A DNA stretch of 29,453 nucleotides from a virus. Positions 10,456 through 17,443 of this stretch are shown here, piece after piece. The position numbers were made by a program, and so were the translations under genes. The notes below the pieces were generated by a model. That model made no database searches. It saw only the letters and a program-made list of their open reading frames with translations, and was not told the origin of the DNA. The DNA is taken from positions 1 through 29,453 of IMG/VR virus record IMGVR_UViG_3300030117_002432; one strand, 5' to 3'. Each line of letters starts with the position of its first letter. Position 1 is the stretch's first letter.

Positions 10456-10590
10456 TTATCTACCTTGTCCTCTATATCTTTTTTTGTAGTTCTTGCTTTG
10501 CTTTACTTTACTCATTTTTGTTTTTGAGTGTACACCTTTTCGCTTTCTGCTTTTTGATTTATATATATTAACCTTTACTTTACGAGCCAT
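10456..10590 (-). CDS. Small, very basic protein (44 aa)
   Basis: The frame runs ATG to TAA. The product MARKVKVNIYKSKSRKRKG is followed by VHSKTKMSKVKQSKNYKKRY and ends RGQGR. About half of the residues are Lys or Arg, and I recall the ending KNYKKxYRGQG from very small proteins of other marine phages, so it is likely real. Its charge suggests binding to nucleic acid, either as a packaged DNA-condensing peptide or as an RNA-binding protein. Its ATG lies inside the last codons of the 43-aa membrane-protein gene (11-nt overlap), placing it at the end of the lysis operon. Confidence 0.75.
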   Translation of the reverse strand: MARKVKVNIYKSKSRKRKGVHSKTKMSKVKQSKNYKKRYRGQGR

Positions 10591-10711
10591 CTCTTGTTAT
10601 ATAATATAAAAAGCTACCAGCTATATATGCTAGTACAAAAAATAAAATAATGTGATATAAGTTTATGTGAGCTTCACCACAAAAGCCTAATAAATGTTCT
10701 AAAGTTTCCAT
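10580..10711 (-). CDS. Small single-pass membrane protein (43 aa) in the lysis cluster
   Basis: The product starts METLEHLLGFCGEAHINLYH and continues with a hydrophobic helix IILFFVLAYIAGSFLYYI before a short polar end (TRDGS). One transmembrane segment is predicted. It begins 2 nt after the stop of the 3-TM holin-like gene. The position suggests an auxiliary holin, antiholin or spanin-like partner, but the sequence does not decide which. The LGFCGE-H-N pattern is familiar from small proteins of Bacteroidota phages. Confidence 0.7.
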   Translation of the reverse strand: METLEHLLGFCGEAHINLYHIILFFVLAYIAGSFLYYITRDGS

Positions 10712-10713
10712 AA

Positions 10714-11172
10714 TTATTTTTTAAATATACTAGTTGCCTTTTCAGTAGTTCTACCACCAAAATATGCCAACACTACAGCCATCATTACTTTTTCAAACGT
10801 ATCATTCCAAACCTCATTTATGTGAAATGGTATGCTATCAACACTATCTAACAAACCAGCAAATGAGAATATTACTATACACCATACTAAAACCAAAGGC
10901 CTTACATTTTGAGTAAGCCAACTACCTTTAGCATCTGCCACCCATCTTGTACTAATAGCTTCTATCTCTTTGTTTTGTTGTTCATATATAAGCTGTTGTA
11001 ATCTAATTTTTTCTTGTGTAGGTATCTTAGCTTTACCTATTTCTGCTATTGCTTCTTTTGGAGATGTAACACCTTTTAATACATTACCAAGTGTAGGATT
11101 AACTATTGATGCAGCTCCGAATAGTAGTTTACCTACTGTACTCTCTGCAAATTTTTTCTTTGGTTTACTCAT
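10714..11172 (-). CDS. Holin-like protein, 3-TM family
   Basis: This 152-aa protein resembles the 3-TM holin family (PF11351 type). It has a weakly hydrophobic N-terminal segment (VGKLLFGAASIVNPTLGNVL), the motif STRWVADAKGSWLTQNVRPL (74-93), a strong helix VLVWCIVIFSFAGLL (94-108), another hydrophobic segment MMAVVLAYFGG (130-140) and the terminal GRTTEKATSIFKK. The SRW-AD...SWL...RPL pattern followed by GGR-EK is diagnostic. It would permeabilise the inner membrane at the end of infection and release the endolysin. It overlaps the amidase gene by 8 nt. Confidence 0.85.
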   Translation of the reverse strand: MSKPKKKFAESTVGKLLFGAASIVNPTLGNVLKGVTSPKEAIAEIGKAKIPTQEKIRLQQLIYEQQNKEIEAISTRWVADAKGSWLTQNVRPLVLVWCIVIFSFAGLLDSVDSIPFHINEVWNDTFEKVMMAVVLAYFGGRTTEKATSIFKK

Positions 11173-11590
11173 TACTTATTAATTTATATTCTTCTTTTGC
11201 GTTATATGACGGACATTCTTTTTTATCTGTGAAATCTTTATGCCCATATACTATAGCTGATGGATGTGCTTCTTTAAGATGAACTAAAACATTGTGTAGA
11301 GTTTCTATTTGTTCAGGTGTTCTTGTATCTTTCCAATCTTTCATATTTTTATCCATACCACCAATATAACATACACCTATACTATCTCTATTATGACCCG
11401 CACAATGTGCGCCTATTTTTTCAACAGGCCTACCCTCTTGTAAAGTGCCATCTAGTTTGATTACATAATGGTAACCACAGTCTGACCAACCGTTACCTTT
11501 AACGTGCCATTCTCTTATATCCTCTACATCAAAGTTTTTAAACTCAGGTGTAGCAGAACAATGTACTATGAGTTTGTTTATTTTTCTCAT
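11165..11590 (-). CDS. N-acetylmuramoyl-L-alanine amidase (Amidase_2 endolysin)
   Basis: This 141-aa protein is of the T7-lysozyme/Amidase_2 type and cuts the amide bond between muramic acid and the stem peptide. Zinc ligands expected from the family are present: H10 (LIVHCSAT), H117 (VYGHKDF) and C126 (KKECPSY), with Y40 in CGYHYVI and K124 near the catalytic centre. The length equals a bare catalytic domain without a cell-wall-binding module. There is no signal peptide, so it needs the holin to reach the wall. Its ATG shares a base with the stop of the secreted thioredoxin-like gene. Confidence 0.93.
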   Translation of the reverse strand: MRKINKLIVHCSATPEFKNFDVEDIREWHVKGNGWSDCGYHYVIKLDGTLQEGRPVEKIGAHCAGHNRDSIGVCYIGGMDKNMKDWKDTRTPEQIETLHNVLVHLKEAHPSAIVYGHKDFTDKKECPSYNAKEEYKLISNE

Positions 11591-11913
11591 TATTTCTTAA
11601 ATAGTATTGCATTTATTCTACCTTGTATCTCTTCTAAAGGTACTTCTAGCTTGAATGATAAACCTGCTGACCATTGACCTTTAGGTTTACCATCTTTACC
11701 AATTAAAACAATAGTAGGTACTGATTTTATTTGTGCTTTAAAATCTGATTTTTGTTCTTCTAAAAACACCTTTAATACTTTTGCATTTCTAATTCTATCT
11801 AAATTATAATCGTTACTTGTGTTCCATTTTGCGTTGATATGTAAAACAGTTACATCTTGACTAAAAATATAACTGCTAAAAAAAAGTGTTAGTATTAAAA
11901 TTAAATTTTTCAT
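11590..11913 (-). CDS. Secreted thioredoxin-like protein without Cys (copy 2)
   Basis: This 107-aa protein has a signal peptide (KNLILILTLFFSSYIFS, probable cleavage before QDV) and a thioredoxin-like core: VTVLHINAKWNTSN, a helix VLKVFLEEQ, then IKSVPTIVLIGKDGKPKGQW with the cis-Pro VPT typical of thioredoxins. The W-C-x-x-C active site is replaced by WNTSN, and the protein has no Cys at all, so it cannot do disulfide chemistry. A role as a periplasmic binding or scaffold domain is more likely. It is paired with the upstream one-TM protein (4-nt overlap) and repeats the arrangement found at 13414-14050. Confidence 0.7.
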   Translation of the reverse strand: MKNLILILTLFFSSYIFSQDVTVLHINAKWNTSNDYNLDRIRNAKVLKVFLEEQKSDFKAQIKSVPTIVLIGKDGKPKGQWSAGLSFKLEVPLEEIQGRINAILFKK

Positions 11914-12218
11914 CTTTTATAAACTTTGTCCTCTAATTCTTTTATTGATTCTTTGTTGTCTAATATATCCTCTTTAAGCCCATCCGTAGATTTTTCTATT
12001 GTAATAATTGTTGATCTTACAAGCTCGTCTTTAAGCTGAAATTCCATTTTTTTTACAAACTCTTCTCCACTTAGTGCATCAATTTTATTTTGTAAATCAT
12101 TTATATCACCCTGCAAAGTAAACCACATACTCGCTAATGACAAAACACCTGCTACTATAATTCCTATTGTTTTAAGGTCAAGTGTTAATTTAGTATCCTC
12201 TGATAATTCTGTACTCAT
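11910..12218 (-). CDS. One-TM coiled-coil protein, i-spanin-like (copy 2)
   Basis: This 102-aa protein has a short N-terminal cytoplasmic part, a transmembrane segment (KTIGIIVAGVLSLASMWF, about 16-33) and a periplasmic coiled coil (INDLQNKIDAL, then helical KKMEFQLKDELVR and KESIKELEDKVYK). It is a clear paralogue of the product at 13754-14050: LDLKTIGIIV and SLASM align at the same residue numbers (13-22 and 27-31). The topology is that of an inner-membrane spanin subunit, but no family match was confirmed. It overlaps both the beta-barrel gene and the thioredoxin-like gene by 4 nt. Confidence 0.65.
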   Translation of the reverse strand: MSTELSEDTKLTLDLKTIGIIVAGVLSLASMWFTLQGDINDLQNKIDALSGEEFVKKMEFQLKDELVRSTIITIEKSTDGLKEDILDNKESIKELEDKVYKR

Positions 12219-13417
12219 AATCTATAATTTATTCCGATTGAACTGTTGTATATTTCTGTATCCCAAAACTTAGTGTATTCTCCCTCTAAGAATATACCAA
12301 ATCTTTTTATTTTCCATCCTATTACTGCACCAAACTGATAGTCTTCCCATTGTTCTAAGTTAGCATCTTTTCTAAGGCCACCTTTTCCATAGTTGTTTCT
12401 GTTCAGGTAACTAAAATCAATATCGCCTTGTATGTATTTATGATAACCAGGTAAGTAACTTCCGTATATATGAGTCCAAAAATTATTCCTATTATGGTAA
12501 AAATCAAAACCTATTATAGGAGATATTAAACCAAAGTCATCAATAAAAGCAAATTGCTCCTCATTCCATCTATTCATCAGATCGCCGAATATTGTATTTC
12601 TAAAATCTATATCTGAGTAAGCTACTATATCACCGTTACTATCTTTCCAAATCCAATCGTATCTTTCCTGTCCTGTTTCTATGTCTGTGTACTTAGTAAA
12701 GTGGTCTGTGTAACCGTAGATAAATCCTAAAGTGTACCAAGGGTTTATCGGGTATTCAATTACATTTCCGTTTGCATCTACATAAGTATCTGTTCTGTTT
12801 AACCAAATTTCTATAGGATTATATCCTGTACCTGTCTCTGCTGAGTGTGTTCTATATATTGCACCAGCACTTATACTTAATTTTCTACCTAAAGGTATTC
12901 TAGCTCTAAGCTCTGCTGATTGATATTTAAAACCAATGTTGCCTTGTTCTCTTTGTTCTAATTTAACAATGTGATATTTGCCTGTATGTCTAATAAAATA
13001 TCTTGAGTTTTTAAACTCCTCTCCTCTTTCTCTTTCTAATTCAAAATTAAACAAGTATTCAAAACCTTTAACTGCTGCTGTAGGTGCAGATAATCCAACT
13101 GTAGATTCTGACCCATCATAGTAATGTTTAGATTTTACCTCGTAATCAAAAAGGCCTAATCTTCTAATTCCAAAAGCTATACGATAATCAAATGGATAAT
13201 ATTCTGTTACATCAATAACTTCAGGTATGTCATATAAATTATCATCTGCTGGTCTCTCTACAAAATAATCCTTTACAGTATTTTTATAAGAGTTAGATAT
13301 ATCTCCTGATACATATACTGTAGAATACTTAAAAAGCTCATCATATACTTTTTTTAAGACTTGTGCTTGTGTGTTACAAAAAAACATAAGCATTATAAAT
13401 ATTAATAACTTTTTCAT
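12215..13417 (-). CDS. Predicted outer-membrane beta-barrel protein
   Basis: This 400-aa protein has a clean signal peptide (KKLLIFIMLMFFCNTQA, cleavage probably before QVLKK). The rest is rich in aromatic residues and alternating hydrophobic/polar strands (DYRIAFGIRRLGLFDYEV, KLSISAGAIYRTH, YTLGFIYGY, SPIIGFDFYHNRN, YQFGAVIGWKI, FGIFLEGEYTKFW) and ends in a strand SSIGINYRL, as expected for an outer-membrane barrel. It would be exported and inserted in the host outer membrane. It lies inside the lysis region, coupled by 4-nt overlaps to a thioredoxin-like gene before it and a one-TM gene after it. The role could be outer-membrane disruption, release or superinfection exclusion. I recall similar uncharacterised proteins in marine viruses. 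Confidence 0.7.
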   Translation of the reverse strand: MKKLLIFIMLMFFCNTQAQVLKKVYDELFKYSTVYVSGDISNSYKNTVKDYFVERPADDNLYDIPEVIDVTEYYPFDYRIAFGIRRLGLFDYEVKSKHYYDGSESTVGLSAPTAAVKGFEYLFNFELERERGEEFKNSRYFIRHTGKYHIVKLEQREQGNIGFKYQSAELRARIPLGRKLSISAGAIYRTHSAETGTGYNPIEIWLNRTDTYVDANGNVIEYPINPWYTLGFIYGYTDHFTKYTDIETGQERYDWIWKDSNGDIVAYSDIDFRNTIFGDLMNRWNEEQFAFIDDFGLISPIIGFDFYHNRNNFWTHIYGSYLPGYHKYIQGDIDFSYLNRNNYGKGGLRKDANLEQWEDYQFGAVIGWKIKRFGIFLEGEYTKFWDTEIYNSSIGINYRL

Positions 13418-13767
13418 CTAAATTTATTTTCTATTAGTTTGTTTATTTCTTTTTCAAGTTTTGTTTTATAATCTTCAGGCATTTTAAGTGTAATACCTGC
13501 CTCTACTCTATATACTTCATTACCATTGTTATAAAGCACTATAGTAGGTAAAAACTCTATTGTCTCATCAATAAAGTAATTTTCGTGTTTTGCGTTTTCA
13601 AAATCAAACACATAAGTATTATGTTCTCTATAATCTTTTATAGAAATTTGTTCAACAAAATCTGCTTTAAAAAGCACGACACTAATTTTTTCTTTATAGT
13701 ATTGACTATTAGCAGTTGATACAAACAGGACAATTAACAGGGCACATATTTTATTATTTAAGTTCAT
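13414..13767 (-). CDS. Secreted thioredoxin-like protein without Cys (copy 1)
   Basis: This 117-aa protein has a signal peptide (NKICALLIVLFVSTANS, cleavage likely before QYYKE). The mature part contains ISVVLFKADFVEQ, a middle helix, ETIEFLPTIVLYNNGNEVYR with the thioredoxin cis-Pro (LPT) and a C-terminal charged helix. No Cys remains in the mature protein, so no redox activity is expected. It is diverged from, but has the same layout as, the 107-aa protein at 11590-11913. It overlaps its one-TM partner gene by 14 nt and the barrel gene by 4 nt. Confidence 0.65.
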   Translation of the reverse strand: MNLNNKICALLIVLFVSTANSQYYKEKISVVLFKADFVEQISIKDYREHNTYVFDFENAKHENYFIDETIEFLPTIVLYNNGNEVYRVEAGITLKMPEDYKTKLEKEINKLIENKFR

Positions 13768-14050
13768 AAATTCGTTCTTCTATTTTCTCAACAGTTTCCT
13801 TTATCTCTTTTACATCCTCTTGTATGTTCTCTACTTGTTGCTGAGTTAAATCTATTTGAGATCGTATAAGCTTGTCTTTAAATTCTATTTCTTTATCTGA
13901 CACAGGAAAAGCAGGTAATTCTTTAGCCTCTGCTATGTCTGCTTGCATAATAAAATACATACTCGCAAGTGATATAGCACCACCTACAATTATTCCTATT
14001 GTCTTTAAATCAAGTTTTACTTGAGTTTCCTCATTAATTACTTTGCTCAT
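13754..14050 (-). CDS. One-TM coiled-coil protein, i-spanin-like (copy 1)
   Basis: This 98-aa protein has a short N-terminus, a transmembrane segment (KTIGIIVGGAISLASMYFIM, about 16-35) and a long charged C-terminal coiled coil (QQQVENIQEDVKEIKETVEK and EERIYEL). This predicts an inner-membrane anchor with a periplasmic rod, like an inner-membrane spanin. It is paralogous to the product at 11910-12218, sharing LDLKTIGIIV and SLASM in the same register. It starts inside the end of the preceding 89-aa gene. Confidence 0.65.
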   Translation of the reverse strand: MSKVINEETQVKLDLKTIGIIVGGAISLASMYFIMQADIAEAKELPAFPVSDKEIEFKDKLIRSQIDLTQQQVENIQEDVKEIKETVEKIEERIYELK

Positions 14051-14303
14051 TGTTCTCTATTTTTTGAATAGAGCCATCACTAAGATTTATATTTGAAAAA
14101 TCTCCGTATGTTTCTTTTAATTTAGTAATATATTTATTGAAGTCTGCTTCGGCTTGTGTCAAACTCTTATGCCACTCGTGTATTCTAACCTCTAAAATAT
14201 TTTTACTATGATATGCTTTACCTAGTTCAAGTTGATCTTTCGCTTGGTTATTTAACAAATCTTGTAATATCTCTAATTCTGATTCTTTTATTTTTTTACT
14301 CAT
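14034..14303 (-). CDS. Coiled-coil hypothetical protein (89 aa)
   Basis: The product starts MSKKIKESELEILQDLLNNQ and has a long helix with EVRIHEWHKSLTQAEADFNK, then KETYGDFSNINLSDGSIQKI. This arrangement (helical region followed by YGD-x-x-INL-x-DG) is common in small phage proteins near tail fibre and lysis genes in marine Bacteroidota phages, as I recall, but has no assigned function. It is the first gene after a candidate promoter (TATATTTG at 14320-14327) and overlaps the one-TM gene downstream by 17 nt. Confidence 0.65.
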   Translation of the reverse strand: MSKKIKESELEILQDLLNNQAKDQLELGKAYHSKNILEVRIHEWHKSLTQAEADFNKYITKLKETYGDFSNINLSDGSIQKIENNEQSN

Positions 14304-14659: not shown

Positions 14660-17443
14660 TTATTTTTTTATTTCTAGTTTTGGTTTACCTCTTTCATCAG
14701 TCCAATCTACTTCCATTATATGTTTATCTTTTCTGTCGCCTATTACAAGCCAGGAAACATAACCGTTAAAATCTTTGTTTTGACATTCTATATTTAACTC
14801 ATTACCCTCTACTTTTCCTCTAACTGCATCCCAACTATCCTCGTTTGTTGTAAATGCTTGTTTGTCATCTACAAGAGCTTCAAATGTTCCCTCTGTCATT
14901 CCAAAATGTTTATCAATATTAATTAATGCTTTGCCGTCAACAAGTTTTGCTTTTCCTCTATATATTAAATCTGTTAGTGGCGATTCTACAAAAGAATGAT
15001 ATAAATAATGTGTATCAGGTTTTACAGGGTGTTCTATTTTAAATGAACCTGACCCTTTACTTAATGCACCTGTTATAGTTAAATCTCCTCCAAAAGTAGC
15101 ATCTCCTGAACTTATTACAACATCGGCTGCATTTCCTTGACTACTTAATACTAAACCTGATTCTGCTCTAATTGCTAATTTTCCGTTGTGTGAAGATATA
15201 ATACCATTTGCACCACCTATAAACCCTATAGTTGTACTTGCTTCTTTAAATCTTTGGTGCATACTTCCTGCTGCTGCCTGTAAAGTTAAAATATTATCAG
15301 GTGCATCAGTTCCAACTCCTAAGTTGCCTGAACTATCTATAGTTAATCTATCATTAGTACCTAAACTAGCATTATCTGATATTTTAAATTTATCGCTATC
15401 TGAAGCATCTACCCCAATACAAAAAGTATTTCCACCATTTGTAATAAAACTCATACTTGCATCTCTTGTTGTTGATGTCGTTTCAATTTTAAGTGTTGGA
15501 AAATCATTATCTAATGCACTAACTAAATGTAAAGCATTTGTATCTGTCAATGAAGTAGCACCTATTGCAAGACCGCCACTATTTATATATGAATTATCAC
15601 CAGCAGCATTTAAAAAGGCTTTTACTGTACCATCGTTAGCTCTTAAAGTTAAACTTCCGTGTCCACTATTTTGACCCAAACTTGCTATTTTAACTGTGTT
15701 ACCACTGTGTGTTAAAGCTATTTCATCTTGATTAGAGCCTGTAGATTTAACATCTAGAATAACGGTTGGTGTCATACCAATTCCTACATCACCTGAACTA
15801 TTAATTCGCATTCTTTCTGCTGATCCATCTGCATCTACAAAAGCTAAACCATCACTACCATTTAAAGTAGCAAGAAAAAATCTTGATGTACCATTTTCTG
15901 AAAACTTTTGATATGTAACACCACTTGCAGCGTTTAAATGTAAAGTGTTACCAGCACCTGTTATATCAACTGTACCTGCAAAAGTTGCATTACCATCACC
16001 AGCAATTTTTAAATCATATCTTGAATCTGTTTCATTATAAATTATAAATCCATTTGAATCAACACTTATTTGCCAATCATCATAAGAAGTTGTATTTAAT
16101 TTATATGCTTTACCATCACCATTTAAAGTAACGTTACCTGCAAAAGTTGTATTCTCGCTTGAATCAATAGTAATTGCAGTTGTATTACCAACTCCGAGTT
16201 GTAAAGTGCCATTAAAATTATTATATATTTTAGAAGCATCTGAGGAATCTTGAAATATTCTTAAACCTGATGAATCACTTGTGCCATTTTTAATAACTAA
16301 TACACCACTCTCTAAATTAATACCAGTTTCTATTGTGGCGCTACCTGCAAAAGTTGCAGATACATCGTGATTTAAAGTCAATGATGTTCCCGCACCAGTA
16401 ACAAACACTATATTAGATTCACTTGATGTTGCAGTATTTTTTATTATACTCCAATTATTGCTACTTCCAGAAACATTATTTTTAATTGCTAAACCTGTAC
16501 CATCTATGTTTAAAGACACAGCCGATGCAAATATTCCTGTTGACCCAATCCCTAAATCTCCTGAAATAAGACCATCCCCTGTAACACTTACTCCTGCACT
16601 TGTAGTTTCAAACTTTTTAGAGTTATCATAATATAATTCTACAGCACCATCATCTATAAAAGTTGCTAAAGTTTCGCTAGTGCCTAATATATCTAACTGA
16701 CTAGCTGTTATTTTTAAATTTCCTGTTCCGTTATCAGTTATATAACTGTGATTTGCATCGTGGTATATTTCTAAATCTTCTCCTGTTCCAATAGTTAATT
16801 TTACATTATCCTCAAATCTAAACTTTTTACTAATTACAGTTGTTTCAGCAGACCCCGCTATTGTTATATATGGTGTGATTCCACCGCTGCCATCATCTGA
16901 TTTAATAAAAATATCAGCATCATTTGTATTTTGCTCTATATATAAATCTCCGGTTGAATTTATTATTTTTCCATCAGTTCCGTTATGTAAAAGTTTTAAG
17001 TCATCACTAGCACCTAAAGATAATTCTATATTATCTTCGAATCTTATATTTTTTTGTACTGTAGTAATTGCTTGACTTCCATCAAGAGTAAAATAGGTTG
17101 CAACTCCACCTGATCCATCATCAGACTGAAATATAACATCGCCATCATCAACTGTATTTACTATGGTAAGATTACCACTAGCATTTGTAATTGTAGAGCC
17201 ATCTATTGTAATGTTATCTACAACAAGATCACCTGTTATAAGTACATTTCCTGTTACATCTAACTCCTTGCCTGATGCTGCTGCACCACCAATACCAACA
17301 CCTGCTGTAGATAAATATAGAATACTATTATTACCTGAGCCATCAGTTATTTGTTGAGCAGTTGAACTTAAAACAGTACTAGCACTTGTTTTTAAGAGAC
17401 CTACATACGTTACCGATATTTGTGTATTTGTTAATGCTGCCAT
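14660..17443 (-). CDS. Long repetitive tail fibre
   Basis: This 927-aa protein is built from beta-rich repeats: SDDGSGG blocks occur twice near the N-terminus, each followed by an RFEDN-type strand and a DLKLLHNGTDG/DLEIYHDANH segment. Many copies of the type AGNVTLNG / TFAGTVDITG / GNATFAG and RLTIDSSGNLGVGTDAPD follow. The C-terminal ~135 residues are a distinct domain starting GSGSFKIEHPVKP, with DLIYRGKAKLVDG, INIDKHFGMTEGTF and ending in KLEIKK. I recall that tip domain in cyanophage and pelagiphage fibres. It is not the S74 chaperone. The fibre should bind the host surface. Confidence 0.85.
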   Translation of the reverse strand: MAALTNTQISVTYVGLLKTSASTVLSSTAQQITDGSGNNSILYLSTAGVGIGGAAASGKELDVTGNVLITGDLVVDNITIDGSTITNASGNLTIVNTVDDGDVIFQSDDGSGGVATYFTLDGSQAITTVQKNIRFEDNIELSLGASDDLKLLHNGTDGKIINSTGDLYIEQNTNDADIFIKSDDGSGGITPYITIAGSAETTVISKKFRFEDNVKLTIGTGEDLEIYHDANHSYITDNGTGNLKITASQLDILGTSETLATFIDDGAVELYYDNSKKFETTSAGVSVTGDGLISGDLGIGSTGIFASAVSLNIDGTGLAIKNNVSGSSNNWSIIKNTATSSESNIVFVTGAGTSLTLNHDVSATFAGSATIETGINLESGVLVIKNGTSDSSGLRIFQDSSDASKIYNNFNGTLQLGVGNTTAITIDSSENTTFAGNVTLNGDGKAYKLNTTSYDDWQISVDSNGFIIYNETDSRYDLKIAGDGNATFAGTVDITGAGNTLHLNAASGVTYQKFSENGTSRFFLATLNGSDGLAFVDADGSAERMRINSSGDVGIGMTPTVILDVKSTGSNQDEIALTHSGNTVKIASLGQNSGHGSLTLRANDGTVKAFLNAAGDNSYINSGGLAIGATSLTDTNALHLVSALDNDFPTLKIETTSTTRDASMSFITNGGNTFCIGVDASDSDKFKISDNASLGTNDRLTIDSSGNLGVGTDAPDNILTLQAAAGSMHQRFKEASTTIGFIGGANGIISSHNGKLAIRAESGLVLSSQGNAADVVISSGDATFGGDLTITGALSKGSGSFKIEHPVKPDTHYLYHSFVESPLTDLIYRGKAKLVDGKALINIDKHFGMTEGTFEALVDDKQAFTTNEDSWDAVRGKVEGNELNIECQNKDFNGYVSWLVIGDRKDKHIMEVDWTDERGKPKLEIKK
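15974..16356 (-). repeat. Recurrent 14-nt word inside the fibre gene
   Basis: The plus-strand word ACCTGCAAAAGTTG occurs exactly at 15974-15987, 16136-16149 and 16343-16356. On the coding strand it encodes the repeated TFAG strand. The conservation at DNA level suggests recent duplication or recombination within the fibre. Confidence 0.8.

Follow-up and report, generated by a model that had tools for sequence, protein, structure and literature searches.

A TM-thioredoxin gene pair tied to the endolysin, with an optional predicted outer-membrane barrel, as a candidate outer-membrane lysis module in marine phages

The window, a linear viral record of 29,453 bases (IMGVR_UViG_3300030117_002432), contains an operon in which two copies of a two-gene unit, each encoding a small protein with one transmembrane segment (TM) and a secreted thioredoxin-like protein (Trx), flank a gene for a 400-aa protein that models, with moderate confidence, as an outer-membrane beta-barrel; the endolysin and holin genes follow. 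Across relatives, the TM-Trx pair is the invariant core of this cassette, and the barrel is optional and always found with a TM-Trx pair; it is the pair, rather than the barrel, that is consistently tied to the endolysin. From these sequences we propose an envelope-spanning late lysis module that would take the place of a spanin but be built from other components, a reading to which we give a probability of about one half. Its observed basis is the anatomy of the genes, the predicted folds, the loss of the redox motif in Trx, the co-occurrence of the families, the linkage to the endolysin, and the lack of a recognizable lipoprotein.

The cassette and its predicted products

The operon is encoded by the minus strand, from 14303 to 10714, in the order g89, TM1, Trx1, barrel, TM2, Trx2, amidase, and holin; successive genes overlap, in this order by 17, 14, 4, 4, 4, 1, and 8 nt. 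The five genes from TM1 to Trx2, which had been described in a sequence-only reading of the window, are present at the place and in the order given there, and the five overlaps from 14 to 1 nt are those among them and with the endolysin. The first gene, g89 (14034..14303), encodes a hydrophilic protein of 89 aa; it is a conserved neighbour and overlaps TM1. The alpha pair consists of TM1 (13754..14050; 98 aa, with the shape of an i-spanin) and Trx1 (13414..13767; 117 aa, alpha subfamily, with a signal peptide and a thioredoxin fold without CXXC). It is followed by the barrel gene (12215..13417; 400 aa), the product of which has a signal peptide and a conserved N-terminal helix (at about residues 20–35), and by the beta pair, that is, TM2 (11910..12218; 102 aa) and Trx2 (11590..11913; 107 aa, beta subfamily, with a signal peptide and a redox-dead thioredoxin fold). 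The last two genes are ordinary lysis genes by their Pfam and PHROG matches: the endolysin, an N-acetylmuramoyl-L-alanine amidase (11165..11590; Amidase_2, PF01510; phrog_822), and the holin (10714..11172; phrog_3427, weakly GTA_holin_3TM). When the coding strand is scanned for hydropathy, plausible membrane or secreted products are confined to the cassette, the holin, and a 43-residue frame with one TM after the holin; the remaining hydrophobic matches come either from very short frames or from within larger proteins.

TM1 has a single hydrophobic segment (near residues 15–35) followed by about 60 mostly charged residues, and TM2 also has one such segment. In the TM family (242 distinct members), the charge bias favours an N-in orientation in only 139/240 members and the predicted periplasmic part is short (median 64 residues). 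The two proteins had been read as paralogues from shared motifs, and alignment bears this out: they are 39% identical over 101 columns (E 4e-24; score 193 compared with a maximum of 62 in 2000 shuffles), and no gap separates the shared motifs LDLKTIGIIV and SLASM in the alignment.

A profile search relates the Trx proteins to thioredoxins (E 3e-9), and nearly all of the structural matches shown for the Trx model (pLDDT 84) are thioredoxins or thioredoxin-like proteins. They share with the thioredoxins of PF00085 the fold and the retained cis-proline position, and the Pfam model recognizes 18 of 37 relatives at E ≤ 0.1; they differ in having a signal peptide, in the pairing of their gene with that for a one-TM protein, and in the family-wide loss of the CXXC active site. 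In all 248 distinct members CXXC is missing from the mature protein; it was found only once, within a signal peptide. Because the motif is absent from the mature proteins, an enzymatic redox role is unlikely; judged by their sequences, the Trx proteins are most likely binding proteins. The description of these genes as thioredoxin-like with signal peptides therefore holds for fold and signal peptide but needs the correction that the redox motif is missing. In a pairwise comparison Trx1 and Trx2 are 25% identical (E 0.02); however, iterated profiles started from either one gather 131 proteins each, so we consider them to be one family.

The model of the barrel protein (pLDDT 71, pTM 0.62, from 23 sequences) has long antiparallel strands, and its best 50 PDB matches (VIA-align) are outer-membrane barrel proteins (e.g., CymA, Z 11.4 over 213 residues with rmsd 6.3, and TamA, Z 11.2 over 181 residues with rmsd 4.1). 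The contrast in hydropathy between the inward and outward faces of the strands, calculated for the barrel family, is 43.3 compared with a shuffle mean of 26.5, and 0/2000 shuffles reach it; an earlier test on the single sequence was weaker, with 39/2000 shuffles as high. The protein thus combines the signal peptide, antiparallel amphipathic strands, and structural matches that characterize the outer-membrane beta-barrel fold class, and structure prediction and strand hydropathy agree with the barrel character that had been noted from the sequence; the predicted structure is that of a transmembrane barrel, and homologues that are virion components encoded in unrelated places were not found. By sequence, the barrel has no credible relative in Pfam, PHROGs, or PDB sequences, including by profile searches. 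By structure, the viral protein A0A516LKJ4 in BFVD, the record of which carries no name or function, aligns with the greater part of the barrel (E 1e-25, 22% identity, TM-score 0.62), which makes it a probable relative within one family.

Families, gene orders, and linkage to the endolysin

Neither Pfam nor PHROGs gives a name to the TM, Trx, and barrel families, and tblastn finds no credible match to any of them in cultured phages, even when the queries include divergent members and a TM consensus; in the literature we found nothing relevant on thioredoxin-containing lysis cassettes or on phage barrels in lysis operons. IMG/VR contains at least 572 relatives of the barrel, at least 456 of one TM subfamily, and at least 190 of the beta Trx subfamily, and hundreds of relatives of the three families are found in marine viral contigs that range from <5 kb to 213 kb. 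Judged by the portal protein, the closest phage in culture is Nonlabens phage P12024S (36% identity), which makes a marine flavobacterium the probable host. At the slot of the cassette, P12024S encodes instead a one-TM protein, the matches of which include a GAF-domain protein. Capture of the barrel from a host genome is unsupported: the barrel profile matches 1/397 genomes in the family of G021, and that one is G021 itself (titled Flavobacteriaceae, the genome behind locus L106); the remaining genome matches are MAG contigs of viral appearance. No fusions among the TM, Trx, and barrel genes were found; two apparent cases (L234 and L236) are effects of ORF labelling where genes overlap.

We surveyed gene order in 144 non-redundant loci. 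The architectures are TM-Trx-barrel (57 loci), barrel-TM-Trx (39), TM-Trx-barrel-TM-Trx (19, including the window), and TM-Trx (10); the rest are a few rare or truncated forms. The five genes had been put forward as a unit for which co-occurrence should be sought in viral genomes. Where 1.5 kb of sequence is available on both sides of the barrel, a Trx gene is nearby in 94/94 loci and a TM gene in 93/94; Trx follows TM for 147 of the 149 TM genes with room, mostly with a short overlap. A barrel with neither partner is seen in seven loci, and all seven are cut by a contig end near the barrel on at least one side. The distances among barrels correlate with those among Trx proteins when the endolysin is controlled for (partial r 0.57 and 0.65). 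Seeding with beta Trx and a divergent TM yielded 82 TM-Trx loci that contain no barrel. A single five-gene unit is thus not what the survey supports, since TM-Trx-barrel and TM-Trx modules also occur apart.

The phylogenies bear on the origin of the two pairs. The Trx tree separates into three clades that are tied to position (SH-aLRT 96–99), with alpha before the barrel, gamma after the barrel in three-gene loci, and beta comprising both the second copy of the five-gene loci and the barrel-less loci; the TM tree also splits by context, less cleanly. A recent tandem duplication is rejected by the position-specific Trx clades and by the occurrence elsewhere of the beta pair alone with endolysin and holin: the two copies, although duplicates in appearance, belong to subfamilies that separated anciently and have different partners. 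On the barrel tree, lineages with differing architectures are intermingled (13 changes), which implies that the pairs around the barrel have been repeatedly gained and lost. The window, as judged from its sequence, carries two modules, that is, an alpha pair with the barrel (TM-Trx-barrel) and a beta pair (TM-Trx).

Of 86 loci, 71 have a muralytic gene (M15 peptidase or amidase) no more than 3 kb downstream, and in 46 the distance is <60 nt; in the remaining 15 loci neither muralytic family was found within this distance, which counts against a lysis-module reading. In the displayed patterns of barrel-less loci that are uncut by a contig end, the endolysin and then the holin directly follow the TM-Trx pair, and the block occurs in at least two unrelated settings. 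In one it follows a tail fibre gene, a DUF7936-like gene (d106), and g89, with NinG after the holin; in the other it follows HK97gp10-like and tail-completion-like genes (our reading of unannotated clusters), with a tail fibre gene after the holin. The endolysin beside the pair is either an amidase or a Peptidase_M15_3. Because the order within the block is constant while its surroundings change, a single lysis module is the best reading.

Loci seeded with the holin were chosen independently of TM, Trx, and barrel, and only those with enough upstream sequence were counted; they are mutually related, so they do not represent 45 independent events. When the holin cassette includes an endolysin, TM-Trx is present in 24/24 loci (13 with the barrel, 11 without); when it lacks an endolysin, TM-Trx is present in 0/21; in two more loci an M15 gene is several genes away and TM-Trx is absent. 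The pair thus tracks the endolysin and not the holin. The assignment of the cassette to a lysis operon, made originally from the window alone, agrees with the linkage statistics and with both the barrel-less and the holin-seeded loci.

A proposed spanin-like function without a lipoprotein

Like two-component spanins (e.g., lambda Rz/Rz1 and T4 PseT.3/PseT.2), the cassette has genes that overlap and lie next to those for endolysin and holin, a small, presumably inner-membrane protein with one hydrophobic segment near its N-terminus, and a presumed span from inner to outer membrane; TM1 and TM2 (98–102 aa) can be compared with the 117-aa i-spanin of T4 (PMC6139136). The difference is in the partner: in place of an outer-membrane lipoprotein, the cassette has a soluble thioredoxin that is redox-dead and that a beta-barrel accompanies in some loci only, and the best match of the cassette proteins to a spanin PHROG is only E 0.2.

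We searched six frames with all starts in the window, in ten relatives of 30–37 kb, and in P12024S, and found no credible lipoprotein; the only candidates are frames of 40–46 codons inside larger genes. As a positive control, the filter recovers 21/22 and 8/8 members of two lipoprotein families. No lipobox is present in 146 distinct Trx proteins, and the pattern is passed by 2/135 barrels, the barrel in the window not being one of them. Without a credible lipoprotein in any frame, the window likewise has no recognizable unimolecular spanin, which would combine an N-terminal lipobox with a C-terminal TM. Neither an o-spanin nor a u-spanin of the classical type is therefore recognizable in the recovered sequence of the window and the ten relatives; the record is linear and may be incomplete, as are those of the relatives, so a spanin could be encoded outside it. 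The cassette has the overlapping, adjacent genes of a two-component spanin in a lysis cassette, but the defining lipoprotein is absent, so it does not belong to the spanin family. Some larger relatives encode in the cassette, beside the barrel, a Tyr/Asn/Ser-rich outer-membrane lipoprotein (LPP) that may be a conventional o-spanin in those phages.

Kongari et al. could identify no spanin in about 13% of the phage genomes in their survey (PMC6139136). The authors argued that such phages must reach the outer membrane by another route and raised, as an untested possibility, that an outer-membrane protein (OMP) could serve as the o-spanin (PMC6139136).

In the mechanism that we propose, the TM proteins would reside in the inner membrane with their helical tails in the periplasm, each paired with a secreted, redox-dead thioredoxin that would serve as a periplasmic binding adapter. 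The barrel would be the outer-membrane anchor of the alpha pair; the beta pair would act alone or on an outer-membrane protein of the host, as in the barrel-less relatives. Once inner membrane and wall have been breached by holin and endolysin, the complex thus linked would pull on, fuse, or perforate the outer membrane, and the virions would escape. Physical interaction, topology, timing, and outer-membrane disruption are what we infer from the observations on the genes and their predicted products. The dispensability of the barrel, that is, the many relatives with TM-Trx and no barrel, counts against the module, as do the short predicted periplasmic part and the weak charge bias of the TM proteins, the LPP of some larger relatives, and the moderate confidence of the barrel model. 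Disruption of the outer membrane had been suggested for the cassette as one duplicated unit; disruption is still the most economical interpretation, given the lysis-gene linkage and the lack of a classical spanin, but the single duplicated unit is not supported. A stronger version, which we advance only tentatively, is that this is the first OMP-based spanin, in which the barrel replaces the lipoprotein o-spanin and is linked by the dead thioredoxin to the i-spanin-like TM protein, with a barrel-free variant that uses an outer-membrane partner of the host.

Alternative functions and significance

The cor or lom genes of lambda-type phages, located near tail fibre genes, are thought to alter outer-membrane receptors. 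The barrel and TM-Trx might likewise modify the host surface, altering, hiding, or replacing a receptor to prevent superinfection or readsorption to debris, with the lysis genes as mere neighbours. This explanation would accord with the optional nature of the barrel and with the position of the cassette after tail fibre genes in many relatives, and phage outer-membrane barrels annotated without a function are known (porin-like phage proteins are among the structural matches). Like lambda Lom/Ail and the porin-like barrels, which are often encoded near tail fibre genes, the barrel in the window is phage-encoded; it differs from them in being larger (about 400 aa), in lacking a Pfam or PHROG family, and in belonging to a family that is accompanied by TM-Trx and, in most loci, precedes the endolysin. 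No Pfam family, hence not Ail_Lom, matches the barrel in the window at E ≤ 1, and its relatives have only chance-level matches. The TM-Trx pair tracks the endolysin even when head-tail genes are upstream, an exclusion protein could do without a gene for a partner in the inner membrane, and the predicted loops are as conserved as the strands (0.67 and 0.70), unlike those of a surface target under pressure. We consider a surface modifier unlikely, although it fares best among the alternatives to a lysis module.

A role in regulating lysis would also suit small proteins, one-TM or secreted, that are encoded next to holin and endolysin (RI of T4 acts on its holin from the periplasm), so the TM-Trx pair could control lysis timing as an antiholin or through the endolysin, with the barrel as an outer-membrane sensor or signal partner. 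The tracking of the endolysin by the pair is as expected for such a regulator, and TM1 weakly matches a PHROG that is annotated as a holin (E 5e-4). However, the pair accompanies two unrelated types of endolysin, a whole outer-membrane barrel would be costly for regulation, and the lipoprotein-free genomes would be left without an outer-membrane step; a timing function is accordingly quite improbable. Least probable is that the barrel itself weakens the outer membrane as a phospholipase- or protease-like enzyme or a porin, with TM-Trx as an assembly helper: its strands contain invariant charged residues and OMPLA is among its structural matches (Z 9.6), but many non-enzymatic barrels rank at least as high as OMPLA, neither a catalytic motif nor a Pfam enzyme family is recognized, and TM-Trx occurs without the barrel.

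The envelope-spanning lysis module is a concrete and widespread candidate for the outer-membrane step in genomes without recognizable lipoproteins, in phages the hosts of which are probably marine Flavobacteriia. The TM-Trx(-barrel) genes may represent a means, so far undescribed, of breaching the outer membrane; if so, they would account for how a large group of lipoprotein-lacking marine phages disrupts that membrane and would assign a function to three families of proteins that are now listed as hypothetical, and the question is directly testable.

Additional open frames in the window

A 43-aa open frame with one transmembrane (TM) segment (10583-10711, minus strand) lies directly after the holin gene. 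A long tail-fibre-like protein (927 aa) is encoded at 14660-17443, also on the minus strand; its length varies widely between close relatives.

The holin family and the neighbors of the endolysin

The holin family of the window cassette also occurs in other phages (L408, L431, L389 and similar), distant from any endolysin; in these loci the order is holin, then a coiled-coil protein that resembles the 89-aa protein of the window and a 74-75 aa protein, and the TM-Trx pair (the one-TM protein and the thioredoxin-fold protein) is absent. A lone additional TM-family protein is located between endolysin and holin in one locus (L366:4631-4927), with the insertion DIDGDGKPDLN preceding its TM segment. 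In the cultured relative Nonlabens phage P12024S, the slot before the endolysin is occupied by gp12, a one-TM protein (L100:8556-9194) with distant matches that include a GAF-domain protein.

Signal-peptide proteins and lipoproteins in the cassette

Members of the signal-peptide family phrog_26616 (motif K..HYLAG...KE..D.GHGDGQD), which carries a lipoprotein annotation, are repeatedly encoded within the cassette or next to it (L095:6924-7274; also L147, L074 and L070, between Trx and the predicted outer-membrane beta-barrel); a shorter protein that resembles this family (L162:11185-11412) has no signal peptide. In larger relatives, the TM/Trx/barrel cassettes also include the gene for an outer-membrane lipoprotein with a high content of Tyr, Asn and Ser (L138:11198-11608, L419:3637-4014 and about 20 further loci). 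This protein, LPP, is a candidate for either a conventional o-spanin, that is, the outer-membrane lipoprotein partner of a two-component spanin, or an additional component.
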